Below are positions 49,780 through 62,606 of a stretch of 64,000 nucleotides of DNA, in pieces (the stretch's first letter is position 1; every line of letters starts with the position of its first letter). The notes below the pieces were generated by a model. The model did not search any database and had not been told where the DNA came from. It worked only from the letters and a program-made list of their open reading frames with translations. The position numbers were made by a program, and so were the translations under genes. This DNA is from Peribacillus simplex NBRC 15720 = DSM 1321 (lineage in GTDB: Bacteria > Bacillota > Bacilli > Bacillales > DSM-1321): contig NZ_CP017704.1 in the NCBI RefSeq assembly GCF_002243645.1, forward strand, positions 186,001 to 250,000, read 5' to 3'.

Positions 49780-50802
49780 ATGACTATACAATATTCTCAG
49801 TTCACAGTATTCGGATTGGGTCCCATCGGAATTGAAATTCTACGCAGTGCTTACCAAACCAATCCACAATCGATTATCGGTGTTGTCGATATTGATCCCG
49901 ATAAGGTAGGAAAGGATATTGGCTCTTTAATCAATGAAAAGGAAACGAACAAGTGTGTAGTCTCCCATATACAGGAAGTAAATACTGAAGCTGACCACCC
50001 TATCGCATTACATGCAACCGGTTCCAACGCACAACAAGTTTGGCCCCAGATCAAAGAGCTTCTAGATCACGGCTTTTCAGTGGTTTCCACCTGTGAACAG
50101 CTTTCCTTCCCTTGGCATCGCTACCCTGTACTTGCAAAGGAAATAGATGATTATGCTAAAGCAAAAGGGCTTAGTGTCATTGGGACCGGAATCAATCCAG
50201 GTTACATCATGGATACTATGGCCATTTCTTTTACAACAGTATTGACCACGGTTAACCAAATCAAGGTCAATCGTAAAGTTGATGTTTCGAAAAGGCGCCT
50301 CCCCTTACAAAAAAAGGTCGGAATCGGGATGACCAGAGAAGAGTTTGAATTTTTAGCTGAACGGAATAAAATTGGGCATGTAGGTCTTGAGGAGTCTGTT
50401 AGGTTAATCGCTTATGGGCTGAATTGGGAACTTTCAAGTGTTATCAATACCATTGAACCAACGATTGCAAGCGAAAATATGACCGTTCCGCTAACTACTA
50501 TAAAACCAGGGGATGTTAATGGGCTACATCAAATCTCCACGGGCATGACCGTGGACGGAAAAGAAATTTCCTTGGATTTAACGATGTCTGCAGGAATTAA
50601 ACAAGAAGATGAAATCGTTATTGATGGGAACGAAACCCAAAGGTTGATTGTTCCCAACGGAATTTTTGGAGATACCGCAACCGCTGCGATGATTATCAAT
50701 ACCGCTAAGCAAATTGATGCCCTCCGTAAACCAGGTTTACTTACAATGGCTGACATCGGGGTGCCGAGAAATATAAATCAATCTGACTTTGTGCATATTT
50801 AA
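49780..50802 (+). CDS. DapB-like NAD(P)H-dependent dehydrogenase (2,4-diaminopentanoate dehydrogenase-like)
   Basis: A 340-residue protein with an N-terminal Rossmann fold (FTVFGLGPIGIEILRSA; GVVDIDPDKVGKDIG) and a C-terminal domain like dihydrodipicolinate reductase. The central motif IGTGINPGYIMDTMAISFTT is typical of the 2,4-diaminopentanoate dehydrogenase/amine dehydrogenase group. Its own substrate is unknown. It is divergent from the MFS gene and convergent with the IclR gene, and AAGGATGAG lies before the ATG. Confidence 0.82.
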   Translation: MTIQYSQFTVFGLGPIGIEILRSAYQTNPQSIIGVVDIDPDKVGKDIGSLINEKETNKCVVSHIQEVNTEADHPIALHATGSNAQQVWPQIKELLDHGFSVVSTCEQLSFPWHRYPVLAKEIDDYAKAKGLSVIGTGINPGYIMDTMAISFTTVLTTVNQIKVNRKVDVSKRRLPLQKKVGIGMTREEFEFLAERNKIGHVGLEESVRLIAYGLNWELSSVINTIEPTIASENMTVPLTTIKPGDVNGLHQISTGMTVDGKEISLDLTMSAGIKQEDEIVIDGNETQRLIVPNGIFGDTATAAMIINTAKQIDALRKPGLLTMADIGVPRNINQSDFVHI

Positions 50803-51023: not shown

Positions 51024-51779
51024 TTAATATGTTTGAGAACCCAGTTTCACGGAAATGGCCTTGGCGGCTTTCGTTACTTTGTCAATCAATTCAGGCAAGC
51101 GCTCTTCCTGAAATCTTGCTTCAATCCCAGCTACACTAATACCAGCTACTATTTGACCTTTACCATTAAGTATCGGTGCACTCACCGCTTTTGTATAATC
51201 CTCAAGTTCTGATGAAGTTATCGTGTAACCATCCCCTCTCGCTTCATCCAAAGCATGACGGAGTTTAGTTTTATCCGTTATCGTTCCAATGGCGATTGGT
51301 TTTAATTGAACGCTTCCTAAATAATTTTCCCGCTCTTCTTCCGGCAAATACGCTAGGATGATTCGAGAATCTCCAGCGTACAATGGCGAACGTCTACCAA
51401 TGGATGTATAAAGGCGAACAGGATGCAGGGTGTCCACCTTTTCAATATACATCGCTTCATCCTTATCCCTCACAATTAAATTCACTGCTTCTTCAACATC
51501 ATCCCGAAGGTCTTTCATGATGGGATAGGCGATTGACCTGATATCCAAACGCTCCCCTACCAGTTGGCCAAACTGAAGGAATATCAGTCCAAGTGAATAA
51601 TGGCCATCATCGTCCCTTGTTAAAAACCCCATTTCCTCCAATGATCCCACCATACGGTGTAACGACGTTTTCGGCAAATTGGAAAGTTCCATCATTTCAT
51701 TAAAAGTCAGTTTCGGATGATTTAAGAAAAGGGTTAGGATTTGCATGGATTTCACGACCGTTTTGTTATGTCCCTGCAT
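51024..51779 (-). CDS. IclR-family transcriptional regulator
   Basis: A 251-residue regulator. The ATG at 51779 (MQGHNKTVVKSMQILTLFLN) has AAAGGAGA 7 bases upstream; 19 extra in-frame residues to 51836 are rejected. The winged helix is at residues 8-65 (MMELSNLPKTSLHRMVGSLE) and the GAF-like effector domain at about 80-250 (VRLYTSIGRRSPLYAGDSRI; SAPILNGKGQIVAGISVAG). IclR proteins often control aromatic catabolism; it is the nearest candidate for the repeated operators at 47504, 49157 and 49257. Confidence 0.92.
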   Translation of the reverse strand: MQGHNKTVVKSMQILTLFLNHPKLTFNEMMELSNLPKTSLHRMVGSLEEMGFLTRDDDGHYSLGLIFLQFGQLVGERLDIRSIAYPIMKDLRDDVEEAVNLIVRDKDEAMYIEKVDTLHPVRLYTSIGRRSPLYAGDSRIILAYLPEEERENYLGSVQLKPIAIGTITDKTKLRHALDEARGDGYTITSSELEDYTKAVSAPILNGKGQIVAGISVAGIEARFQEERLPELIDKVTKAAKAISVKLGSQTY

Positions 51780-52067
51780 ACATTGTCTCCTTTCATGATA
51801 CATGTTTTCCTTAACTATCATTCTATTATAAAACATGAAAGAAAGGATGTAATATAACTGTTTCCATATGTTGTTTTTTGAATATGCTCTGACCCTGTAT
51901 TCTCATTTGATTTTCCGACTTGACTTTCATTCTGATCGAATCATTAGATTTTGCTTTTTCCCTGTATTGCAAATTGGAATTACCAATGGGTTATTGGCTA
52001 ATCAAGCTCATAGTAAGAGCCTGAATTGGGAAATGCTGAAGCGTTAGCGAATTAAGTTGCATGAGAA

Positions 52068-53810
52068 TTACAAAAATCCATTCACCATAGGCATTTTCAA
52101 AATTACTTTTGTACCTTTCCCTTCACTAGATTGAAGGATAAGGTTTCCACCGGAAGCTCTGGCTCTTTCCTCCATACTGAATAAGCCTACTCCACGGGTA
52201 ACTTTTTCTATATCAAAGCCCTTTCCTTTATCTTCTATTTCCACTCGAACTTCTTTCTCTATTTCCCAGATCGTCACTGTAGCTTCTTCGGTTTGAGCAT
52301 ATTTCCGAATATTTGTTAATGCTTCTTGGATAATACGGTAAATAGTAATTTCTTTGTTTGTATTTAGACGGCAATTCAAATAGCATTTAAAATGGACCTT
52401 GATATGGTGATGTTCTGAAAATTGCACCAATAAAGAGCGAATGGCAGGGAACAGACCAAGATCATCAAGTACCGATGGCCTTAATTCCCATGATAGTTGC
52501 CGGAGTGCTTCGATAATTTCGGTCGCTTCATCCTGCATCTGATTTAACAGGGGATGATCCATTTCTGTCTGCAGCCTGTTAATCGTTATAAGGTGGCTGT
52601 ATAAGTTTTGTCCGATATCATCATGAAGCTCTCGGGAAATGCGTTTTCTTTCTTCTTCCTGCACATCAATGATTTTCCCCGTCATTTTCTGAATCTTTTC
52701 TTCCGCAAGCTTGCGCTGGGTCACTTCATAACGAATCGCTAAATATTGGTAAGGTTTATTGTACTCATCAAGAAAAGGGACTATTGTCGTATCCACCCAA
52801 TAATAAGTACTATCCTTGGTCTTATTTTTAATCTCTCCTTTCCATACTTCCCCTGCTGAAATTGTTTTCCAAAGACTGCTGAAAAACTCTCTTGAATGAA
52901 ATCCCGAGTTAATAATTCGATGATCCTGTCCAATCAACTCTTCTTTTGAAAACTTTGAAATCCGGCAAAATTGATCATTGACATATTTGATGGTCCCTCT
53001 ATGATCGGTTATTGCTATAATTGAGGAAGCATCCAAAGCAAATTGAAAATCGGTCATTTTATTTACGGATTTTCCTAATTCCTCTACAACTCGTTTATAT
53101 TCGGTAATTTCCTTCCGAACTGCCAGGTATTTATAGGGGTTCCCTTTTTCATTTAAGAATGGGACAATTGTGGTATCCACCCAATAATAGGTTCCATCCT
53201 TCGCTTTGTTCTTAATTTCACCCCGCCATACACTTCCTGATGAAATTGTTCGCCAAAGTTCTTGCATAAATCCCTTTGAATGATAACCTGAATTGATAAT
53301 TCGGTGGTCCTTCCCAATAAGCTCTGCTTCTGAATATTGTGATACCTCACAAAATTTCTTATTAACAGATTTTATCTTGCCTTTTTCATCTGTAAAAGCG
53401 ACAATCGTAGATTCATCGAGTGCGTACATTAAATCAACCAGCTCATTTATGGGATAGGATAGCTGTTGATTAAGCCTTGATTGGTCTTTCACTTTATGGA
53501 ACACAACTAAGTAATAGACCTCTTTTTCAAGCGAAAAAGCATTCACCCTGAAAAAAAGTGAAAAAGCATGACCATCCCTGTGGATTCCGAACTGGTGGAT
53601 AATTTCCCCTTCACCACTGGCCTGAAGATTTGCTCCTGGCATAAGATTCAAAAGCTTTTCTCCTATTAATTCATGATTTAAATAACCAAAACTTTCACAT
53701 ACCTGTTGATTCGCAAAAGAGATGACGCCAGATTCATTGACGAGAATTGTCGCATCGCTGGACCCAGAAGAAATCTCTTTTTCCATTTTTAAATGATTAT
53801 TCCAGTCCAT
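52068..53810 (-). CDS. Sensor histidine kinase with three PAS domains (NarL-partner type)
   Basis: A 580-residue cytoplasmic kinase. PAS1 is at residues about 15-110, PAS2 about 125-240 and PAS3 about 255-368. PAS2 and PAS3 are near-duplicates (GKDHRIINSGYHS and GQDHRIINSGFHS; YYWVDTTIVPFL in both). HisKA_3 follows with H396 in RISRELHDDIGQNL, then HATPase with IIQEALTNIRKYA and IEDKGKGFDI. No membrane segment and no NreB-type Cys4 set is seen. It is last in the nre group and should act on the NarL-type regulator at 54282. Confidence 0.92.
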   Translation of the reverse strand: MDWNNHLKMEKEISSGSSDATILVNESGVISFANQQVCESFGYLNHELIGEKLLNLMPGANLQASGEGEIIHQFGIHRDGHAFSLFFRVNAFSLEKEVYYLVVFHKVKDQSRLNQQLSYPINELVDLMYALDESTIVAFTDEKGKIKSVNKKFCEVSQYSEAELIGKDHRIINSGYHSKGFMQELWRTISSGSVWRGEIKNKAKDGTYYWVDTTIVPFLNEKGNPYKYLAVRKEITEYKRVVEELGKSVNKMTDFQFALDASSIIAITDHRGTIKYVNDQFCRISKFSKEELIGQDHRIINSGFHSREFFSSLWKTISAGEVWKGEIKNKTKDSTYYWVDTTIVPFLDEYNKPYQYLAIRYEVTQRKLAEEKIQKMTGKIIDVQEEERKRISRELHDDIGQNLYSHLITINRLQTEMDHPLLNQMQDEATEIIEALRQLSWELRPSVLDDLGLFPAIRSLLVQFSEHHHIKVHFKCYLNCRLNTNKEITIYRIIQEALTNIRKYAQTEEATVTIWEIEKEVRVEIEDKGKGFDIEKVTRGVGLFSMEERARASGGNLILQSSEGKGTKVILKMPMVNGFL

Positions 53811-53830
53811 ACATAGTCCTCCTGTTGCCC

Positions 53831-54292
53831 TTAAATTGAGTTATTTAATTCCTTTTCCAATTTTTTCGCTGCATCAAGGATCGTATGTTGGTCACTTTCA
53901 GAAATAGGCTGATTTGTTCTATTACCTACTAATAATACTCCTTTGAGAACACCTTTTAATTGAATTGGAACTGCGAAAGCGTAGCTGAGATTTTCCGCGA
54001 GCATGATAGGATATTCTAGTGCTTTGCCAAGGATATTATTAGGAAAATCTTCAATTTTCATCGACCTGCCTGTTGATATGACCTTACCTGCAATCCCTTT
54101 TCCATATCGAACAGTTATTCTTTTGTATTTATCATTTCTGTTCCCAGCGGCATAATGCCAGCTTACGTCTGGTCCGTTGCTGTTTTGTAAAGCAAGGCCA
54201 ACAAAATCACAGTTCAATTCTTCTAGTACTTGTTCACACGCTTGTTTATATGGATGATCTTTTCTCGATTTATTGCACCCGTTAAATTCCAT
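53831..54292 (-). CDS. nreA: NreA-like nitrate receptor (GAF domain)
   Basis: A 153-residue single GAF domain. NreA of Staphylococcus binds nitrate and relieves its inhibition of the NreB kinase. Here VSWHYAAGNRNDKYKRITVR, RYGKGIAGKVISTGRSM and ALEYPIMLAENL match that family, with Trp45 and Tyr94-Pro95 at places I recall as nitrate contacts. The ATG overlaps the response regulator end by 11 bases and the triple-PAS kinase follows after 20 bases, so receptor, regulator and kinase are coupled. Confidence 0.87.
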   Translation of the reverse strand: MEFNGCNKSRKDHPYKQACEQVLEELNCDFVGLALQNSNGPDVSWHYAAGNRNDKYKRITVRYGKGIAGKVISTGRSMKIEDFPNNILGKALEYPIMLAENLSYAFAVPIQLKGVLKGVLLVGNRTNQPISESDQHTILDAAKKLEKELNNSI

Positions 54293-54935
54293 ACCCTAAT
54301 AACCCCTTTTTTAAAGCAAATGCAACAAGTTCAGGTCTTGTTTTCATCTGAAGCTTCTCCATTAGGTTTCCTTTATGGGTTTCAACCGTTTTCACGCTTA
54401 TGACAAGCTGTCCGGCAATTTCTTTATTGGAAAATCCTTTCGCAATCAATGTCAGTACCTCTTTTTCACGGTCCGAAAGAAGATTAAAAGTATCAGGGAT
54501 CCCCTGCTTCACACTACCTATGTATACTTCCATTAACCTTTTTGTTGCAGATGGATGAAGGTAAGCATTTCCGGTCGATACAGAGCGAATAGCTACCAAT
54601 AACTCTTCATGCGGTGCACTTTTTAAAATACAACCTGAAGCCCCAGCTTGAATAGCTCTGAACAAATATTCTTCATCATCATGCATAGTAAGTATTAATA
54701 TGGCTACTTCTGGCATTAGTTTTTTCAGTTCTGAAGTTGCTGATAAACCATCTTTCCCATGAGGCATGCTTAAATCCATGACTACCACATTAGGCTGAAG
54801 TTCTAGTGCTTGCTGTATTCCTTCGTTCCCCTCGGAAGCCTCCCCTATCACTTCCATATCAGCATGATTATTTAATAGCATCTTTAAGCCCATTCTTACA
54901 ACGGCGTGATCATCGCAAAGCAAAATTTTTATCAA
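54282..54935 (-). CDS. nreC: NarL/NreC-type response regulator
   Basis: A 217-residue regulator: receiver domain 1-120 with DD at 8-9, phospho-acceptor D54 in VVMDLSMPHG and K105-region LKSAP; a LuxR-type helix-turn-helix at about 150-210 (LSDREKEVLTLIAKGFSNKE; SVKTVETHKGNLMEKL). The start is TTG at 54935 with GGGGGAG upstream. By context and family it is NreC-like and should activate the nitrate reductase operon under nitrate and low oxygen. Confidence 0.9.
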   Translation of the reverse strand: MIKILLCDDHAVVRMGLKMLLNNHADMEVIGEASEGNEGIQQALELQPNVVVMDLSMPHGKDGLSATSELKKLMPEVAILILTMHDDEEYLFRAIQAGASGCILKSAPHEELLVAIRSVSTGNAYLHPSATKRLMEVYIGSVKQGIPDTFNLLSDREKEVLTLIAKGFSNKEIAGQLVISVKTVETHKGNLMEKLQMKTRPELVAFALKKGLLGYGI

Positions 54936-55035
54936 AGCTGCTCCCCCTTAGCTTTGTTTGTATATGTATTATTATAAATAAATATGAAACAACAACGGGG
55001 ATTGCTCAATTAGCAAACCCCTTGTTTAGTCCATT

Positions 55036-55686
55036 TTAATATAATGGAAGAGAAATCTCTATAGAGGTCCCCTCATCGATTTTTGAATATATGATACATT
55101 TTCCGCCAATCAAATGCATTCTTTCACTCATGGCAGCAAGTCCGCTCAACTTATTCATAGCGGTTTCAACCTCAAAACCTTTCCCTGAATCTTTAATCAT
55201 AATCAATAACCTGCTTTTTTTCCATTTGAATATTATACTTGCCTTCGTTGTATCAGCATACCTTGCTATATTCACCAATGCTTCTTGGCAGACTCTGAAA
55301 AGTGTAATGCTATCTCTATCTGAAATTTGCGATTCAACACCTAGATTCTCTACCCCAACTTCAATGCCATATGTTGAAGTGTATAAATTTATATAACTTT
55401 TCATTGCAGAAACCAGCCCCAAAGTTGTAAGGCTAGGAGGATGCAATTCTAAAGCCAAGAGCCTGATTTCTTGAATTGTCTTTTCCAATAGCTGGTTCAT
55501 ATCACCTGCATAGCTTTTCATGGCAGGCTGTTCGATTGCCTTTTCAATGAGCTGCATACCTGTAAAAAGACTGTAGAGGGACTGTCCCACGCCTTCATGA
55601 AGCTCCATTGCAATTCGTTTAATCTCTTCTTCATGAGTTTGAATAATATAAGAACTAATGTTTTTTTTGAGTGGCTGAGTATTCAT
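55036..55686 (-). CDS. Short sensor histidine kinase without sensor domain
   Basis: A 216-residue protein with only HisKA_3 (RIAMELHEGVGQSLYSLFTG, His at residue 30) and HATPase (FRVCQEALVNIARYA; MIKDSGKGFEVE; GLAAMSERMHLIGGK). The ATG at 55686 with AAGGAGG upstream replaces the in-frame GTG at 55692. All catalytic boxes are present. With no input domain it may be driven by NreA or by the PAS domain of the NarK fusion encoded just upstream; the partner is inference. Confidence 0.88.
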   Translation of the reverse strand: MNTQPLKKNISSYIIQTHEEEIKRIAMELHEGVGQSLYSLFTGMQLIEKAIEQPAMKSYAGDMNQLLEKTIQEIRLLALELHPPSLTTLGLVSAMKSYINLYTSTYGIEVGVENLGVESQISDRDSITLFRVCQEALVNIARYADTTKASIIFKWKKSRLLIMIKDSGKGFEVETAMNKLSGLAAMSERMHLIGGKCIIYSKIDEGTSIEISLPLY

Positions 55687-55892
55687 TCCCACCCTCCTTA
55701 CTCGTTTTTCGCAAATTATCGGTCAGCCCGACTAAATACGCCACGCCCTCCCAAAAGTTACGCTTTCGGTCGAGCGATGTAAAAGCTGACGTAGATTTTT
55801 TTGTCCAGTGGGAAAGTAAGCACTAGTACTTCTTGTACGTAGAAAACTCCGCTTCAAGACTGGGAATTCAATGATTTACTGCCCATAGTTTT
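55687..55892. other. Intergenic region between narK-PAS and the short kinase gene
   Basis: 206 bases without a gene. On the minus strand CTACGTCAGC near 55,780 and GGGCTGAC near 55,710 form a long-range inverted repeat around a GC-rich segment; role unknown. It may hold a separate promoter for the regulatory genes. Confidence 0.35.
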
Positions 55893-57398
55893 TTATGCTT
55901 TTTTCACTTTATGACTTGAAATGTCACTAAACATTCCGGCATATTGAACAACATCCCCAGCATCATTTTTTATTGCACTAATTGTCAGCCATTGTAGATA
56001 TTGTTGTCCATCCTTTCGGCTATTCAAGATTTCACCTTGCCAGAAACCATTTTCTTCAATAGATTTCCACATATCCTCATAAAAAGTCTGAGGCTGTTTA
56101 CCTGACTTAAGTATACTAGGATTCTTTCCAATTACTTCATTTTCCTGATAGCCAGTAATCCTTGTAAACGAAGGGTTTACTGAAATGATTTTACCACTGG
56201 TATCGGTGATCAAAATGCCTTCTATTGTATTGTAAATCACTTCGTTGGCAAGCCCCATTTTACCTTGGAAATACATCCAGACTACTAAAATCAAACTTGC
56301 AAGGGCAACTTCTGACAATGCCATGAACCCGATTGCATAATGGCCTGTGATATTGAATAACAAGGATAGAATTAACGGCGGGAAAAATCCTCCCATACCT
56401 CCCATTGCGGACACAATTCCATTCACAATACCGGCCTGCTTTTGGAAATACATGGGCACAAGCTTAAAAATAACACCATTTCCTATTCCAGCGCAGAGAG
56501 CAATACTTAAACAGCCAAATGTGTACCAGCCAATTGTTGGAGCAAAGGATAGGACCATTGCTGAAATCGTATAAATTCCAAAAACAAACATGAGCAGAAT
56601 AAGAGAATGGAAGCGGTCGGCAAGCCACCCGCCAATAGGTCTCATAAGAGTAGCAAGAACAATAAAGCCTGCTGTCCTTACACCTGCATCAACTTTATCT
56701 AATCCAAAGTTCGCTACAAGAAAGTTTGGCAGATAAATAGTAAATGCAACAAAAGAACCGAATGTTATAAAGTAAAATAAGCTTAGAAGCCATAGTTTTT
56801 CATTTTTGTAGACACCCTTAATTTGTTCTAAAAGCGGTGTCTTTACTCTCAGTTCCTTTTTATCCCCTAATAGGAAGTTACCTGCGATAAATACTGCCAA
56901 AATCACAAGATAAAGCTGTACGGTTGTTGACCAGCCAAACTTCGTAGCTACAACAGGTGCTGCAAATGCTGATATAGCCGTTCCGAGGTTTCCTGCACCG
57001 TAAATTCCGTTTATAAAGCCATGGCGTTCCTTAGGATAGTACTTCGGTAAAGAGGTTACTCCAACAGAGAATACGGCTCCCCCAATACCAAGAAATAGCC
57101 CTCCAATCAACAAATCAGCAAGAGAATCCGCAATACTGATATAATAAACAGGGAATAACAGCGATATAAAGCTAATCAGGAAAATTTTCCTGGCCCCGAA
57201 CTGATTGGCGTAAAAGCCAAGGGGAATGCGAAGAATAGATCCTAAAATAACTGGAACAGCTGTTACCAGTGCAAGCTGACCATCCGGTATTGCGATATCT
57301 TCTTTAATAAAAGGCAGCAGGGACGAAATTAATACCCACACCATAAATCCGACAACGAGGTTTAAGGTTTGTAATGGAAGCTGAATTTTTCTAAACAT
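55893..57398 (-). CDS. narK: NarK-type nitrate/nitrite MFS transporter fused to a PAS domain
   Basis: A 501-residue fusion. Residues 1 to about 375 form a 12-helix NarK/NasA-type carrier with LVVGFMVWVLISSLLPFIKE, the helix-5 nitrate signature GAGNLGTAISAFAAPVVATK and the second signature GIVNGIVSAMGGMGGFFPPL. From about residue 382 a complete PAS/PAC domain follows (GILITDTSGKIISVNPSFTR; ILNSRKDGQQYLQWLTISAI). No kinase or output domain follows PAS. The ATG at 57398 is chosen; a GTG at 57407 is also possible. It overlaps the upstream small gene. The PAS domain may sense redox state and gate transport, or signal uptake to the neighbouring kinases. Confidence 0.92.
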   Translation of the reverse strand: MFRKIQLPLQTLNLVVGFMVWVLISSLLPFIKEDIAIPDGQLALVTAVPVILGSILRIPLGFYANQFGARKIFLISFISLLFPVYYISIADSLADLLIGGLFLGIGGAVFSVGVTSLPKYYPKERHGFINGIYGAGNLGTAISAFAAPVVATKFGWSTTVQLYLVILAVFIAGNFLLGDKKELRVKTPLLEQIKGVYKNEKLWLLSLFYFITFGSFVAFTIYLPNFLVANFGLDKVDAGVRTAGFIVLATLMRPIGGWLADRFHSLILLMFVFGIYTISAMVLSFAPTIGWYTFGCLSIALCAGIGNGVIFKLVPMYFQKQAGIVNGIVSAMGGMGGFFPPLILSLLFNITGHYAIGFMALSEVALASLILVVWMYFQGKMGLANEVIYNTIEGILITDTSGKIISVNPSFTRITGYQENEVIGKNPSILKSGKQPQTFYEDMWKSIEENGFWQGEILNSRKDGQQYLQWLTISAIKNDAGDVVQYAGMFSDISSHKVKKA

Positions 57399-57678
57399 CC
57401 TGACCACTCTCTCTTCTAATTACATATTGTAATCTCGCATTTTCGTCAAAAGCTGACCACTCATTTTCATTTTTAGTCACATTGGATATCAACGGGACAG
57501 CGAAAAAATTAATGTCGTCAAAGTAAATACGCAGATGTGTTATATCAGGACAAAGCTCCACCTTAACAATCGTTTTAGAAACGAAAGGAGCTTTACCCTG
57601 GACATCATCATCTAAGATGGCTACACTTGCTTTTTCCGATATTAATGGTTGTATATCTTCTATTTTAATGTGTTCCAC
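57391..57678 (-). CDS. Small unknown protein A of the nitrate operon
   Basis: A 95-residue soluble protein starting at a GTG (57678) that follows AGAGAGGA by about 10 bases; the open frame extends to 57711 but would run into the upstream gene. It contains VEHIKIEDIQPLISEKASVA, a central SKTIVKVELCPDITHLRIYF and ends IRRESGQDV. Beta-rich in appearance, one Cys. The family is not recognised. Overlaps with both neighbours imply coupled translation with the transporter. Confidence 0.7.
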   Translation of the reverse strand: MEHIKIEDIQPLISEKASVAILDDDVQGKAPFVSKTIVKVELCPDITHLRIYFDDINFFAVPLISNVTKNENEWSAFDENARLQYVIRRESGQDV

Positions 57679-57976
57679 AGGTATTGCATCCTCTCTTTGC
57701 CGTGTAAACATTCATTTGAAAACCCTGCAAATATTCCCAGAATGTATCTTCTGCATGATTCTCGATAAATTCAATTGTTTCCACTACAGACTCCCAATTG
57801 CTCATTCCCTTTACTTCGGCAACTACAATATCGGCCCCATCTATTGACTTTTCATCTAAATACCAGTTAAGACGGACATCTTTAAAAAGGTCTGAAAGGA
57901 GCTTATCGATTTCAGCAGCAAAATTTCCAGATGCTTCTTTTACAAAACAAAAATCAAAGTATGTTTCACTGTTCAT
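57665..57976 (-). CDS. Small unknown protein B of the nitrate operon
   Basis: A 103-residue acidic protein. The ATG at 57976 has AAGGCG upstream; a GTG at 57985 is an alternative. It starts MNSETYFDFCFVKEASGNFA and ends YTAKRGCNTCGTH with a C-terminal CxxC two residues from the end, which could bind metal or join a redox exchange. No family recognised. It lies between the small membrane protein and protein A in an unbroken chain of overlapping or touching genes. Confidence 0.72.
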   Translation of the reverse strand: MNSETYFDFCFVKEASGNFAAEIDKLLSDLFKDVRLNWYLDEKSIDGADIVVAEVKGMSNWESVVETIEFIENHAEDTFWEYLQGFQMNVYTAKRGCNTCGTH

Positions 57977-57981
57977 TTGAT

Positions 57982-58173
57982 TCACGCCTTTTCGTTTTTC
58001 GTTTTTTTATAAGTAAATAACGCTAAGGGAAACACCACTATGTTTAATCCCCCAAATATTAAAACATTTACATAATTTTCATAATAATATTGATGAACCA
58101 TAAATTGGGTAAATACAATATTCATCATAAAGAAGGCACAAAGCAACGCGACACCAATAAACTTAAGCCTCAT
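57982..58173 (-). CDS. Small two-helix membrane protein of the nitrate operon
   Basis: A 63-residue protein with two predicted membrane helices (FIGVALLCAFFMMNIVFT and VLIFGGLNIVVFPLALFTY) and a short basic tail. It overlaps the end of the Rieske gene by 11 bases. No family recognised; size and position suggest an anchor or assembly subunit of the reductase complex. Confidence 0.72.
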   Translation of the reverse strand: MRLKFIGVALLCAFFMMNIVFTQFMVHQYYYENYVNVLIFGGLNIVVFPLALFTYKKTKNEKA

Positions 58174-58690
58174 AACGCTTCACCCTTACTGCGTATACCC
58201 CGCCATTTTCAACTTTCACCTGAATCTCAGGCAGCGGCCTTCTTGGCGGACCGGCAGTTGGAGCACCTGTTTCAACATCAAATTTTCCATGATGACAAGG
58301 ACAAACCATCTCTCCTTCTTCCTTCACCCAGAAAACCGGGCAACGAAGATGTGTGCATGCATTTTGGTAAGCTACGTATTTCTTTTCAGACAATCTGATC
58401 AAAATAGCATCATCATGATCACCTGGAAATTTAAACTCTACTGCGTCACCAATTGCAATTTTGCTTACATCTGTGATTTTTTTGTGGGGATACTCCTTTT
58501 CCCCAAGACCCATCAATTCTTTAGCCGCTACCGCTCCCCAAGGAAGGGAGGAAATTGCGAATACACCAGCAGCTCCCACTAATGTTTTCATGAACCCACG
58601 TCTGTCGAGCTTTCTTTCATTATTCCGTTCAATATTGTGGGTGTAATTATCTTCATTAAAGGGAATTTTATTATTTTTATCTGACGGCAT
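58163..58690 (-). CDS. Rieske [2Fe-2S] protein with Tat signal
   Basis: A 175-residue Rieske protein. The N-terminus has the twin-arginine motif LDRRGFMKTLVGAAG and a hydrophobic helix (VFAISSLPWGAVAA), so it should be exported folded and probably stay anchored. The cluster ligands are in CTHLRCPVFW and VCPCHHGKFD (two Cys, two His), with a GAPTAGPPRRPLP loop typical of QcrA-like proteins. AGGAGGG precedes the ATG. Inside the operon it probably exchanges electrons with menaquinol or with the cytochrome-b-like subunit outside the membrane. Confidence 0.93.
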   Translation of the reverse strand: MPSDKNNKIPFNEDNYTHNIERNNERKLDRRGFMKTLVGAAGVFAISSLPWGAVAAKELMGLGEKEYPHKKITDVSKIAIGDAVEFKFPGDHDDAILIRLSEKKYVAYQNACTHLRCPVFWVKEEGEMVCPCHHGKFDVETGAPTAGPPRRPLPEIQVKVENGGVYAVRVKRYEA

Positions 58691-58701
58691 CTTAATCCCT
58701 C

Positions 58702-59262
58702 CTAAAATAGCTTCGTTATCCCCTGTAAAATACCAGGCAAATTTACTTTAACGTTCGTTTCACCTTCAAGATACGGCATGCTAGTCACCCATTTTCCATT
58801 ATCTAGATGAAATTGTTTTTTCTTAATTTCAATTTCTTTATCGGTCAGCCACTGGAGTGTATTAGACGGGCAAACACTTGCACACATTGGCGGGATACTG
58901 TCTTTTGTCCGGTCGATACATAAATCGCATTTGTACATTAAGTTTTGTTCAGTGTCAAATTTTGGTATTCCGTATGGACAAGCAATCGTACAGTTTTGGC
59001 AGCCAATACATTTTTCAACGAGAGCGGATAATACGGCCCCTGTTTCATGGATTTGGATTGCCTGGGCTGGACAGCTTCTTGCACAGGCCGGATTCACACA
59101 ATGAAGGCACATTAGAGGCATGGTTTGCCGATTAACCATAGGGTTTACATCATAAACATAGTTTCTATTCCGTTCTTCATGCCCTCCGCATTGTGTACAT
59201 GCTGCAAGGCATGAACGGCATCCTATACAGTTTTCAAGTTCTAAGTACAGCCTCTTTTTCAT
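58702..59262 (-). CDS. Four-cluster [4Fe-4S] ferredoxin subunit (NrfC/DmsB-like)
   Basis: A 186-residue electron-transfer subunit with 16 or more cysteines in four sets: ENCIGCRSCLAACTQC, MCLHCVNPACARSCP, EKCIGCQNCTIACPYG and YKCDLCIDRT with MCASVCP. This is the pattern of the iron-sulfur subunit of molybdopterin enzymes. There is no signal peptide, so it is cytoplasmic. The ATG directly follows the stop of the catalytic gene. It should pass electrons from the membrane subunit to the catalytic subunit. Confidence 0.94.
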   Translation of the reverse strand: MKKRLYLELENCIGCRSCLAACTQCGGHEERNRNYVYDVNPMVNRQTMPLMCLHCVNPACARSCPAQAIQIHETGAVLSALVEKCIGCQNCTIACPYGIPKFDTEQNLMYKCDLCIDRTKDSIPPMCASVCPSNTLQWLTDKEIEIKKKQFHLDNGKWVTSMPYLEGETNVKVNLPGILQGITKLF

Positions 59263-61431
59263 TTATTGCACCTTCTTTATTTCAACTTTTTCCAATTGAG
59301 CAGCACATGCCTTATATTCCGGCATACGGGAGATCGGATCAAGTGCTGCAATGGTTAATAGATTGATAGATTGCTCGTGACCAAAGTGGTACGGAACAAA
59401 TACAGTATCTTTACGAATTGCTTCTGTAATTTTCACTTTATAGATTGCCTCGCCTCTTCGGGTATGTAGGCGGACTCTTTCTTCATGTTCCATATTGTAT
59501 TTTTTTGCTGTTTCCGGATGTACTTCGACGTATGGCTCCGGACACATATCACGCAAGAACTGGATTCTTCTCGTCTGGTTCCCAGATAAGTAGTGGTAAA
59601 CGACACGTCCAGTTGTTAAACGAAGCGGATATTTTTCATCTGGCTCTTCAGCAGGGGGACGGTAAGGAAGCGCACAAATTTTCGCTTTGCCGTCTGCGTG
59701 ATAGAATTTTTTATCCAGGAACATATGCGGCGTTCCCTTATCATTTTCATCCTTACAAGGCCAAAATACTCCGTCCTGTTTGTCGATTTTATCCCATGTA
59801 GCACCGTAATAATCGGCATATCCCCCTTTACTAGCCAGTCTGAATTCATCAGCTATATCTTTTGCTGTTTTCAAATAGGAAAAATATTTTCCTCTTCCAA
59901 GACGTTCTGCAAGTTCTACTTGTATTTGCCAATCAGGCTTAGATTCACCGATTGGTTCTTGTGCCTTATTTATCTTAATAATTCTTCCTTCAAGGTTTGT
60001 AACTGTTCCTTCATCTTCTGACCACGTTACAGACGGCAGGATCACATCCGCAAACTCTGCTGATTCAGAAAGATAGAAATCCGAACACAACATAAAATCC
60101 AGGTTTTTCATCGCACTTCTGACGAAATTTAGATTCGGCGCAGATACTGCAGGATTAGAACATAGCAGATACAATCCGCGGATCGTTTTTTGTTCCATCA
60201 GTTCAAACATTTCATAAGCAGAAACACCCGGCTGAGGCATTTCTTCCGGAGTAATTTTCCATACTTTACAAACTTCTTCAACATGTTTAGGATTTGTAAT
60301 TTTACGGTATCCTGGCAATAAATCCGCTTTCTGGCCATGTTCCCGTCCACCCTGTCCGTTGCCTTGACCAGTGAATGTTGCTACACCAGACTTCGGACGG
60401 CCAATCTTACCTGTTACAAGCGCCATGTTTGTATATCCAGATACATTGTCAACACCCTTATGCTGCTGTTCAATTCCACGGGCAAACATGACAACTGCAT
60501 TCGGTGCTTTTCCATAAATCTCTGCTGCGCGAATAATTTTTTCAGGTGCCACACCTGTAAGCTCACTCGTATATTCCAGTGTGAATTTTTGTACAAGCTC
60601 TTTTGTTTCTTCAAATCCGTTTGTATGATTATTAATAAACTCTTCGTCAGCATAACCATTTTGAATTAATAAATTTAAGATTCCATTAGCAAGGGCAAGA
60701 TCCGTTCCCGGTTTCAGGTCAAGGTGCACATCTGCTCTTCTCGCAACTGGCGTTTCGCGGGGATCCACCACGATAATGTAACCTCCTCTTTCTTGAACGT
60801 TCCAGACTCGGAACATAGAAGTCGGATGACATTCTGCTGTGTTGCTTCCTGCAATAAATAAGCAATCTGTTTCATGAATATCTGTCCAGGGTAATGTTGA
60901 ACCTCTATCTACACCGAAAGAACGAAAGAATCCCCCGGCCGCACTTGACATACAGAAACGGCCATTATAGTCAATGTAGCGTGTTCCAAGTGCCACACGT
61001 GCAAATTTCCCTGTTAAATAGCATTTTTCATTTGTCATTGATACGCCGCTGAAAACGGATAATGTATCTTTTCCATATTTATTTTGAAGCTCACTGAACT
61101 TTTTCACGATTAAATCATACGCTTCATTCCAGCTTGCTTCACGGAAGCCTTCCTTTGTTCCTTTTAATGATGCATCATCACGAATAAGCGGTTTTAAAAT
61201 GCGATCATCATGGTTCGTCTGCTGGTAAGCTGTAACCCCTTTGGGACACATTTTCCCTACCGTTACAGGCCAATCATAACGTGGTTCAACCCCAATGATT
61301 TTATTTGTCGCTCTATTTACCCTTAAATTCATCCCACACTGCATTCCACAATATGCACAATGCGTTTTGACCAATGATTCATTCGGGTGTATTACATTCT
61401 CTACTTCTTTAAAAAACTTATCCCTTTGCAT
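59263..61431 (-). CDS. Molybdopterin nitrate reductase catalytic subunit (Nap/Nas/NarB-type)
   Basis: A 722-residue bis-MGD enzyme. The N-terminal [4Fe-4S] site is C25, C28, C32 (HCAYCGMQCGM) and C62 (KMCPKGV). C160 in YNGRFCMSSAAGG is the likely Mo ligand, as in Nap/Nas enzymes (Nar has Asp). Other family parts are GSNTAECHPTSMFRVW and TGQGNGQGGREHGQKADLLP. The C-terminal MGD-binding domain starts near LTTGRVVYHYLSG. There is no Tat signal, so it works in the cytoplasm. Lack of a NasC-type C-terminal [2Fe-2S] domain fits the separate ferredoxin subunit. Formate dehydrogenase is the main alternative, but NarK, NreA and NreC argue for nitrate. Confidence 0.88.
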   Translation of the reverse strand: MQRDKFFKEVENVIHPNESLVKTHCAYCGMQCGMNLRVNRATNKIIGVEPRYDWPVTVGKMCPKGVTAYQQTNHDDRILKPLIRDDASLKGTKEGFREASWNEAYDLIVKKFSELQNKYGKDTLSVFSGVSMTNEKCYLTGKFARVALGTRYIDYNGRFCMSSAAGGFFRSFGVDRGSTLPWTDIHETDCLFIAGSNTAECHPTSMFRVWNVQERGGYIIVVDPRETPVARRADVHLDLKPGTDLALANGILNLLIQNGYADEEFINNHTNGFEETKELVQKFTLEYTSELTGVAPEKIIRAAEIYGKAPNAVVMFARGIEQQHKGVDNVSGYTNMALVTGKIGRPKSGVATFTGQGNGQGGREHGQKADLLPGYRKITNPKHVEEVCKVWKITPEEMPQPGVSAYEMFELMEQKTIRGLYLLCSNPAVSAPNLNFVRSAMKNLDFMLCSDFYLSESAEFADVILPSVTWSEDEGTVTNLEGRIIKINKAQEPIGESKPDWQIQVELAERLGRGKYFSYLKTAKDIADEFRLASKGGYADYYGATWDKIDKQDGVFWPCKDENDKGTPHMFLDKKFYHADGKAKICALPYRPPAEEPDEKYPLRLTTGRVVYHYLSGNQTRRIQFLRDMCPEPYVEVHPETAKKYNMEHEERVRLHTRRGEAIYKVKITEAIRKDTVFVPYHFGHEQSINLLTIAALDPISRMPEYKACAAQLEKVEIKKVQ

Positions 61432-62500
61432 TCTGGTTTGCCTCCTTAACTTTTATCTCATGAATAGGGGAACCGGAAAATTGAGCGATCCGGTATTTTC
61501 TACGGCAAGGTAGGCACATTTCAGCGAGATGGTGGCCTTCCTTCGTTTGAAATTCGATATTATTCACGCTTAGAACCTCTACGACATCTTTTGATTGTTC
61601 TGTTGAAACAAACTCATCACCACATACTTTGCATCCTTTCATGGATTGTTCCGCGTAATGCTCTCTGTAGTTTCTTGCAAATACACTCATTGGGCGAAAA
61701 GGTATGTGAGCAAGTTTTCCGAATGGAAGATAAATCAATGTAATAATGACTGACCACTGGTGAATCAGGGACATGGCTGGCTGTCCTGCACCGTGCAAAA
61801 AGATGTTCATAAACGTTAGTGCCAATCCTGTAATGCTGACTAATAACAGCATATATAAAGGAAGAAAGTCATACATGAATTTTTGTTCTGCTCTTGCCTG
61901 CATATTTTTCAAGCGGCGGTATAGAGCCATGCATACTCCAGTAATAACCATCACAGCTGTAATGTTCAGAGCGTTATATGATAAGTTCGCAATGATCCCA
62001 TCAGCTGGTACTGTTATTACCTGGATCCCCATTGCGATGATGTTGTAGTAGCCATTGTCGTCCATGGTGAAGTACATCCATCCAAATACTAGAGGGAATG
62101 TCACGAAGCAGGAAAGAATACATCCCCATCCGATTAGAACGTGCTGAGTCCATCGGTAAATTCCCCTATTCCAGATGAAATTGTATGTAGCTAAATGTTC
62201 AACTGATGTTTTAGGCGTTGATTTTCTAAATAGAAGTTTGATGCCTTTTTTTATAAAAATCTTTGTTGGCGGCCTTTCTCCCCATGCGATAAACCTGTAA
62301 AAGAACCCCCCAATAAAAATAATCGTCCCCACCATATAGCCATAAAGGTTTAAATCTACGTGTGTAAACATTCTCGTACCAATAAACGATAAGAATACAA
62401 GTCCGCAAACTGCTAGAAACATAGACTTAGCAAAATGTGATGCAAAAGCATTATCAATCGATTTTCCTGTTTTTTGATTTGCTGCGACTTTTGCCTGCAT
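61418..62500 (-). CDS. Cytochrome-b-like membrane subunit with Cys-rich C-terminal tail
   Basis: A 360-residue protein with about six membrane helices. His residues near helix ends, in WTQHVLIGWG and SLIHQWSVIITLIYLPFGKLAH, resemble haem-b ligands of NarI-type subunits. After about residue 285 a soluble tail carries GCKVCGDEF and EMCLPCRRKYR, a CxxC...CxxC pair that could bind Zn, [2Fe-2S] or [4Fe-4S]. GAGGAGG precedes the ATG; it overlaps the catalytic gene by 14 bases and is first in the operon. It should oxidise menaquinol or link the Rieske protein to the cytoplasmic subunits. Confidence 0.85.
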   Translation of the reverse strand: MQAKVAANQKTGKSIDNAFASHFAKSMFLAVCGLVFLSFIGTRMFTHVDLNLYGYMVGTIIFIGGFFYRFIAWGERPPTKIFIKKGIKLLFRKSTPKTSVEHLATYNFIWNRGIYRWTQHVLIGWGCILSCFVTFPLVFGWMYFTMDDNGYYNIIAMGIQVITVPADGIIANLSYNALNITAVMVITGVCMALYRRLKNMQARAEQKFMYDFLPLYMLLLVSITGLALTFMNIFLHGAGQPAMSLIHQWSVIITLIYLPFGKLAHIPFRPMSVFARNYREHYAEQSMKGCKVCGDEFVSTEQSKDVVEVLSVNNIEFQTKEGHHLAEMCLPCRRKYRIAQFSGSPIHEIKVKEANQNAKG

Positions 62501-62538
62501 TACTATTCCTCCTCATTACAAACAATTACCATACCCTT

Positions 62539-62606
62539 ATTGTAAGAGCTGCCCCGTTTTTTCCATATCGGGGGACTTCCCTATCCTAAGGGGAAAATTC
62601 CCCTAT
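62539..62606 (-). promoter_or_regulatory. Promoter and activator-type palindromes of the nitrate operon
   Basis: On the minus strand TATGGA (62562-62567), 17 bases and TACAAT (62539-62544) form a promoter with a poor -35. Just upstream are TAGGGAAGTCCCCCG (62569-62583) and the palindrome GGGGAATTTTCCCC (62590-62603, within a wider TAGGGG...CCCCTTA). GC-rich palindromes of the TAGGG-N4-CCCTA type are what I recall for NreC targets in staphylococci. Confidence 0.6.

Follow-up and report, generated by a model that had tools for sequence, protein, structure and literature searches.

In the 64,000-nucleotide stretch of the Peribacillus simplex NBRC 15720 = DSM 1321 genome (5.65 Mb) analysed here, termed the window, 12 closely spaced genes run leftward between window positions 62500 and 52068. 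They probably encode a dissimilatory nitrate reductase that is linked to menaquinol and has a catalytic subunit of the assimilatory NasC lineage. The operon joins this NasC-type catalytic subunit (Cat) to a Nar-like membrane chain and a Rieske protein, which is a new combination. The enzyme is very likely a nitrate reductase and likely a dissimilatory, membrane-linked one. This judgement draws on the genes present, the residues of the active site, the phylogeny, the conservation of the locus, the promoter motifs and the distribution across genomes.

Pfam and NCBIfam searches of the operon recognized a Rieske protein, a Fer4_11 ferredoxin, a molybdopterin oxidoreductase, NarK with a PAS domain, two HisKA_3 kinases (HK1 and HK2), a LuxR-type regulator and an NreA-like GAF protein, and detected no NarJ, NarG or flavin adenine dinucleotide (FAD) subunit among the operon proteins. 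An earlier, sequence-only reading had described such a run, mostly overlapping, with a NarK–PAS fusion, two kinases, a regulator, NreA and three small proteins, and lacking NarJ, NarG-type and FAD subunits. This layout holds in position and strand (Table 1): 6 of the 11 joints overlap (gaps in transcription order -14, 0, 11, -11, -4, -47, -17, 200, 100, -11 and 20 bp), and a short membrane protein, SmTM, completes the trio of small proteins with SmA and SmB.

In the mechanism that we propose, menaquinol would be oxidised at the NarI-like cytochrome b (CytB), with protons released outside. Electrons would cross the membrane through heme b and pass via the four-cluster ferredoxin (Fer4) and the [4Fe-4S] cluster of Cat to its molybdenum bis(molybdopterin guanine dinucleotide) cofactor (Mo-bisMGD), where nitrate would be reduced to nitrite in the cytoplasm. 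NarK–PAS would import nitrate and export nitrite; the Rieske protein, fixed on the outer face by a twin-arginine translocation (Tat) anchor, may take some part at the quinol site; and the NreA-like receptor, the two kinases and the regulator would switch the operon on via two palindromes.

Active site and descent of the catalytic subunit

Among curated models, NasC fits Cat best (877.9 bits, below its cut-off of 1100), followed by a formate dehydrogenase model (652 bits, cut-off 666), and the top matches of a PDB search with Cat are formate dehydrogenases. These scores, together with the PDB matches, called for a test at the level of residues. We aligned 30 module subunits with E. coli FdhF and NapA, proteobacterial Nas and the NasC of the same genome. 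Cat of the window has Cys160-Met161 at the molybdenum ligand and Thr354 at the position of formate-dehydrogenase Arg333. The Cys-Met pair and the Thr are present in all 30 module subunits; formate dehydrogenases have Sec/Cys-His or Cys-Gln at the ligand, and Arg333. Of the 80 named loci (the best 80 of 478 relatives, all from the window's own clade A), 79 also carry the Cys-Met motif. The exception is a broken locus in P. frigoritolerans T7-IITJ (L086), where the module genes lie in short open reading frames (ORFs), perhaps through an assembly error. Cat thus has a nitrate-reductase-type active site and is not a formate dehydrogenase.

Two trees place Cat in the same neighbourhood. The first held 41 rows; the second, with 43, left out AioA and one protein of the same genome (L020), both very long rows, as well as eight clade A rows, and gained 11 rows of NasC and one of clade C. 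Module subunits and Bacillota NasC were joined with a support of 98/92 in the first tree and 100/100 in the second, and formate dehydrogenases stood apart from the module at 99/99 and 100/99. In the second tree the module rows form one clade (94/94, not starred), sister to 12 NasC rows; in the first, the branching order among NasC, Deinococcus, clade C and clades A+B was not settled. The position outside the formate dehydrogenases that had been proposed from sequence is therefore borne out by active site and trees. As to the earlier label 'Nap/Nas-type', Cat is sister to Bacillota NasC and scores below the NasC cut-off; it is not of the Nap type, as the NAPA model gives only 341.7 bits (cut-off 930.55) and the tree agrees. 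Cat is not of the NarG type either (50.9 bits, cut-off 1084).

Besides the module Cat, the P. simplex genome encodes three PF00384 proteins, of which one belongs to a nasABC-DE-like cluster (L019). None of the four is a NarG, the narG model reaching at most E 8e-12. The module and Bacillus NasBC have sister catalytic clades, with 41-47% identity to the genome's own NasC and the same active-site residues. They differ in their partners: NasBC has a NasB-type FAD protein, whereas the module has a cytochrome b, a four-cluster ferredoxin, a Rieske protein and a small membrane protein. The P. simplex NasC cluster contains a 790-residue protein that is NasB-like by place and by eye; the window operon lacks a NasB-type FAD donor.

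Two side observations concern related molybdoenzymes. The proteins of L021, L212, L213, L216, L220, L221 and L227 are formate dehydrogenase-like, kin to B. subtilis YjgC/ForC, with Gln at the position of FdhF His141. Cat of Bacillus dakarensis (L113) lacks four residues of the N-terminal cluster motif in the alignment.

A membrane chain conserved in three clades

CytB scores 22.1 bits against PF02665 (NarI), just below the cut-off of 22.9. From hydropathy and charge, it is predicted to have six helices and to keep both termini inside; a seventh hydrophobic stretch (153-171) is ambiguous. Across 27 rows from clades A, B and C, His120, His247, His265 and Cys290/293/329/332 are invariant. In the predicted topology, His120 and His265 lie near the inner side and His247 near the outer side; His247 and His265 are 18 residues apart, a spacing known from NarI. 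The four-Cys pattern, found in 80/80 named loci, sits in a predicted inner tail that the positive-inside loops place in the cytoplasm. The Rieske protein keeps its RR-x-F signal in 79 of these loci, and its CTHL...CPCH motif is conserved. A SmTM profile built from clade A finds a match after the Rieske gene in all nine clade B loci and in 4/4 clade C loci (the fourth being L235), with weak matches (E 0.011 and 0.054) in two of these four. The plan of a catalytic subunit, a four-cluster subunit and a NarI-like b subunit resembles NarGHI; the module differs in that Cat is not NarG, NarJ is missing and a Rieske protein is added. Haloarchaea likewise have a nitrate reductase with a Rieske protein and a cytochrome b: there, NarGH, with NarB (Rieske) and NarC (cytochrome b), is of the NarG type, exported, and uses a bc1-type cytochrome b.

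A search with CytB found relatives in 14 of 43 genomes of the family and in 94 of 397 genomes of the order, the own genome included, or 90 once four weak matches (E 4e-5 to 8e-4) were dropped. Identities form two bands, at least 76% for the 29 clade A genomes and about 35-44% for the 61 genomes of clades B and C together. In 36 relative loci chosen for having CytB (24 from clade A, nine from B, three from C), CytB, Cat, Fer4 and Rieske occur in the same order without exception, with an Mrp-like gene between Fer4 and Rieske in L081. Among the 80 named loci, with genes counted on the same strand only, Cat, Fer4 and Rieske are found in all (in pieces in L086), SmTM and SmA in 78 each and SmB in 77; NarK–PAS in 39, another NarK in 15 and no NarK in 26; HK2 in 68, the response regulator (RR) and HK1 in 67 each and NreA in 66. 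Three loci end at contig edges (L097, L144, L160), and in six the regulators have the opposite orientation (L105, L109, L111, L114, L116, L121). Since core order is kept in 36/36 loci and all core genes are present in 80/80, chance clustering is ruled out; the neighbourhood search that had been suggested thus finds a strongly conserved core, and its five parts (CytB, Cat, Fer4, Rieske, SmTM) recur in three clades.

Hosts named among the best 80 of 478 relatives comprise Peribacillus, Cytobacillus, Neobacillus, Niallia, Robertmurraya, Aquibacillus and Thalassobacillus, which rules out a restriction to Peribacillus. Wide spread across the phylum is not what we find: CytB occurs in 2 of 398 genomes of a phylum sample that held few members of this order, and both belong to it. 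A limit to this order is called into question by the Paenibacillus protein reported as best match (80%) of B. bataviensis NasC (PMC3475470). Four Deinococcus plasmid records contain a CytB relative at about 33% identity, the only matches in that collection, and the two examined have Cat, ferredoxin, Rieske, a DUF6755 protein and a transporter in the same order. The DUF6755 protein holds the place of SmTM and is alike in place and size only: the SmTM profile misses it, PF20540 does not match SmTM of the window, and DUF6755 was therefore rejected as the family of SmTM. We found no mention of DUF6755 in the open-access literature.

SmA has a predicted ferredoxin-like beta-alpha-beta-beta-alpha-beta fold and no Pfam match over the cut-off. 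This fold class is that of NapD, but the predicted model had no PDB match at E 0.001, and a NapD-like chaperone function stays a guess. Profiles of SmA and SmB, run against 1401 frames of clade B and C loci, gave a best E of 0.018, and both proteins were seen in clade A only.

Further features were noted around the relatives. Niallia endozanthoxylica has two module copies ~34 kb apart on one contig (L098 and L102), one of them without SmA, SmB and regulators. A motif search showed a radical SAM protein, an Mrp-like ATPase and a YwiC-like membrane protein recurring near clade B and C modules (L070-L081); the radical SAM copy in L072 matches TIGR04053, kin to heme b/d1 synthase. By eye, small truncated-hemoglobin-like proteins stand beside clade C modules (L073, L074, L080), and ORFs of short tandem peptide repeats occur in L076 (736-2442) and L079 (12408-13076).

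Promoter sites and nitrate-sensing genes

The clade A promoter set comprises the window, 24 relative loci and the 80 named loci, which makes 105 promoters, or 97 once near-identical ones are merged. Some of these promoters were the source of the palindrome pattern, and shuffled sequences therefore serve as the control. A TAGGGRRDTTCCCY site within two mismatches is present in 93 of the 97 unique promoters (shuffles, 0.9%), and 55 of them have two separate sites (shuffles, 0.02%), 53 of these 20-23 bp apart. None of 12 clade B and C promoters has the GC-rich palindrome. In the P. simplex genome, the 18-base form has one exact match, which is site 2 of the operon (Table 1), and eight matches with two mismatches, versus 2 for a reversed control. 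Clade B promoters have another signature: TGTGA-N6-TCACA, the FNR box, is found within two mismatches in 9/9, exactly in seven. It occurs in 28 of the 105 clade A promoters (one exact) and in none of three from clade C; shuffles give 15% at two mismatches. Six proteins near five clade B modules, chosen by eye, all match Crp/Fnr-family models below the equivalog cut-offs.

Control by TnrA is unsupported. A TnrA-like box is exact in 1/97 clade A promoters and in 1/9 from clade B (shuffles, 1.2%). It is absent upstream of the window operon and lies 92 bases upstream of the genome's nasA-like gene, so that the promoter sites of the module differ from those of the nas cluster.

The NreA-like protein, aligned to PDB entry 4pau, keeps W45, G-[IL]-A-G and Y-P-I, which line the nitrate pocket of NreA; its whole-sequence score falls below the NreA cut-off (Table 1). 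Oxygen-sensing [4Fe-4S] kinases of the NreB type carry four Cys with a CxxC motif, and no CxxC pair is present in HK1 or HK2, the Cys of HK2 being at 135 and 199 only. Staphylococcal NreABC and the module share a GAF nitrate receptor, a kinase, a regulator and a GC-rich palindrome; they differ in the CxxC motif, in the second, PAS-bearing kinase and in the target operon. Phosphorylated NreC (NreC-P) is reviewed as binding a GC-rich palindrome at nitrate genes (PMC8139620, PMC5694512), and the clade A palindrome would be an NreC-like site by this description. In L063, NarK–PAS is divided into two ORFs of 293 and 194 amino acids (aa).

Table 1. Genes and promoter sites of the module in window coordinates (TM, transmembrane helices; pLDDT, predicted local distance difference test)
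Feature	Position	Strand	Basis
CytB, 360 aa, membrane cytochrome b resembling NarI, six predicted TM, C-terminal C-x2-C...C-x2-C domain	61418..62500	-	PF02665 E 1.3e-4
Cat, NasC-type Mo-bisMGD catalytic subunit, 722 aa	59263..61431	-	NCBIfam NasC, active-site residues, trees
Fer4, DmsB/NarH-type ferredoxin, 17 Cys, four [4Fe-4S] clusters predicted	58702..59262	-	Pfam/NCBIfam, Cys count
Rieske [2Fe-2S] protein, RRxF Tat-type signal anchor	58163..58690	-	PF00355
SmTM, 63-aa membrane protein	57982..58173	-	Clade A profile
SmA, small protein, C-terminal GCxxCG	57665..57985	-	Predicted fold, pLDDT 89.7
SmB, small protein, CPDxTHxRxYFD motif	57391..57711	-	Motif
NarK-family nitrate/nitrite transporter fused to PAS domain	55893..57407	-	TIGR00886 218.5 bits (cut-off 311.7) and PAS
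HK2, short HisKA_3 kinase, no sensor domain match	55036..55692	-	Domain search
NreC/NarL-type response regulator, TTG start	54282..54935	-	Domain search
NreA-like GAF protein	53831..54292	-	NF038250 105.8 bits (cut-off 175); PDB 4pau E 3.7e-22
HK1, three-PAS HisKA_3 kinase	52068..53810	-	Domain search
GC-rich palindrome, site 1, upstream of operon	62590..62605	-	
GC-rich palindrome, site 2, upstream of operon, 22 bp from site 1	62567..62584	-	

A diaminopentanoate dehydrogenase-like protein (49780-50802) and an IclR regulator (51024-51836) adjoin the operon and are apparently unrelated to it.

Nitrate phenotypes and competing readings

In the 397 genomes of the order, NarG is above its cut-off in 70, NapA in 13 and the module in 90. 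Sixteen module genomes have NarG, 11 have NapA and 67 have neither; module and NarG do not exclude each other (odds ratio 1.0, p 1). We searched 11 named module genomes for PF00384 proteins and classified four of them fully. In P. butanolivorans DSM 18926, the 4/4 classified proteins are two Cys-Gln/Arg types, one L020-like protein and the module subunit, the only Cys-Met/Thr type, and the strain is listed as positive for nitrate reduction (PMC9262404 Table 1). The module provides the only Cys-Met/Thr type also in Cytobacillus oceanisediminis 2691 (5/5) and Sporosarcina globispora DSM 4 (6/6); a literature search gave no phenotype for these two strains. Bacillus sp. DNRA2 has three module subunits (L233, L234 and L235; two of clade A, and L235 of clade C) and four others among 7/7 classified proteins, with no NarG or NapA among these seven of its draft assembly. 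Its cultures turn nitrate into nitrite and ammonium after oxygen is consumed (PMC10653820), and the gene called nap in this strain may be a module subunit. Two formate dehydrogenase-like frames of DNRA2 (L230, L232) each contain one in-frame TGA, and therefore likely encode selenocysteine. Promoter sites, transporter and two genotype–phenotype cases fit dissimilatory nitrate reduction and strengthen the nitrate-reduction function first read from the sequence.

Several points weigh against a dissimilatory, menaquinol-linked enzyme. Of the four His expected of a NarI-type subunit, CytB has only three that are invariant in the membrane, enough for one clear bis-His heme and not for a clear second; the CytB structure model is poor (pLDDT 55), and a fold search with it carries no meaning. 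In the stretches covered, no NarK lies downstream in 26 of the 80 clade A loci, two of them cut short, and clade C promoters have neither palindrome nor FNR box (0/3). P. butanolivorans DSM 18926 is scored negative for anaerobic growth; in the same table, four of six strains do not grow anaerobically, one is variable and one weak, and P. frigoritolerans is nitrate-variable (PMC9262404). The DNRA2 authors state that the strain has nap and ascribe the first step to it (PMC10653820), and the assembly is a draft. Further candidates exist in 7 of the 11 named genomes: an additional NasC in C. firmus NBRC 15306 and P. frigoritolerans FJAT-2396, NarG-length frames in N. vireti, N. novalis, Niallia endozanthoxylica and Thalassobacillus devorans, and an unclassified 867-aa PF00384 frame in B. 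methanolicus DE0196.

The anaerobic growth data would also suit an alternative, membrane-linked assimilatory reductase that supplies nitrite to NasDE/NirBD. Its NasC-type subunit points the same way. Two surveys of the dimethyl sulfoxide reductase family class NasC as assimilatory (PMC7331816, PMC10100899). Heylen and Keltjens (2012) read the nasC gene BABA_16882 of B. bataviensis, which adjoins FeS and Rieske genes in an arrangement common to Bacillus sp. 1NLA3E, as such an alternative assimilatory system (PMC3475470). We nevertheless regard this explanation as unlikely: the TnrA-like box marks the genome's nas cluster and not the window operon, FNR boxes and NreC-like sites precede clade B and clade A modules, an NreA-like protein and kinases are encoded inside the operon, and DNRA2 reduces nitrate dissimilatorily (PMC10653820).

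Where nitrate is reduced bears on another reading. Arsenite oxidase is exported jointly on the Tat signal of its Rieske subunit; Cat and Fer4, which have no signal by eye, could likewise leave the cell with the RRxF-bearing Rieske protein, whose relatives include AioB, and reduce nitrate outside. The C-terminal Cys domain of CytB is cytoplasmic by the positive-inside loops, though, and NarK in 54/80 operons together with the NreA-like protein points to cytoplasmic nitrate; we hold co-export to be quite improbable. That the enzyme is a formate dehydrogenase, or reduces another oxyanion, appears very improbable. The model score and PDB matches described above lean that way, and a topology that groups the module with formate dehydrogenases survives the approximately unbiased (AU) test at the 0.05 level (p-AU 0.06), which counts against our placement and means that the tree alone is not final. 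The active-site residues weigh more: with Met and Thr replacing the formate-site His and Arg, we reject a formate dehydrogenase. The context of NarK, NreA-like protein and FNR boxes, and nitrate reduction by species without another candidate, also argue against it.

The sequence-only reading knew of no described enzyme with these parts. In the open-access literature, our search found no description of the whole operon; subscription papers fell mostly outside it. The nasC-FeS-Rieske part has been in print since 2012 (PMC3475470): by description only, these catalytic, FeS and Rieske genes are the same, and the passage on them describes no cytochrome b, small proteins, Nre-like genes or respiratory role. 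For a Neobacillus that lacks napA and reduces nitrate with oxygen present, a 2026 paper suggests narG, which is present there (PMC13199352). According to a 2020 survey, the canonical pair of four-cluster subunit and membrane anchor accompanies none of the enzymes in the formate dehydrogenase/Nas/Aio/Nap clade, and the role of Nas is confined to assimilation (PMC7331816). If the dissimilatory reading holds, the module contradicts both statements.

It is unlikely that the module represents a fourth nitrate reductase class. In such a class, the two electrons of menaquinol would be split in a Q-cycle-like manner between the Rieske protein on the outside and the NarI-like cytochrome b, one passing to the Rieske protein and an outer acceptor and one across the membrane to the NasC-type cytoplasmic reductase; nitrate respiration would then conserve energy in a new way. 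The module may explain nitrate reduction in strains without the usual respiratory enzymes, and strains that reduce nitrate without narG or napA gain a testable candidate. With the module in 90 and NarG in 70 of the 397 genomes, surveys based on narG and napA may undercount nitrate reduction by soil bacilli.

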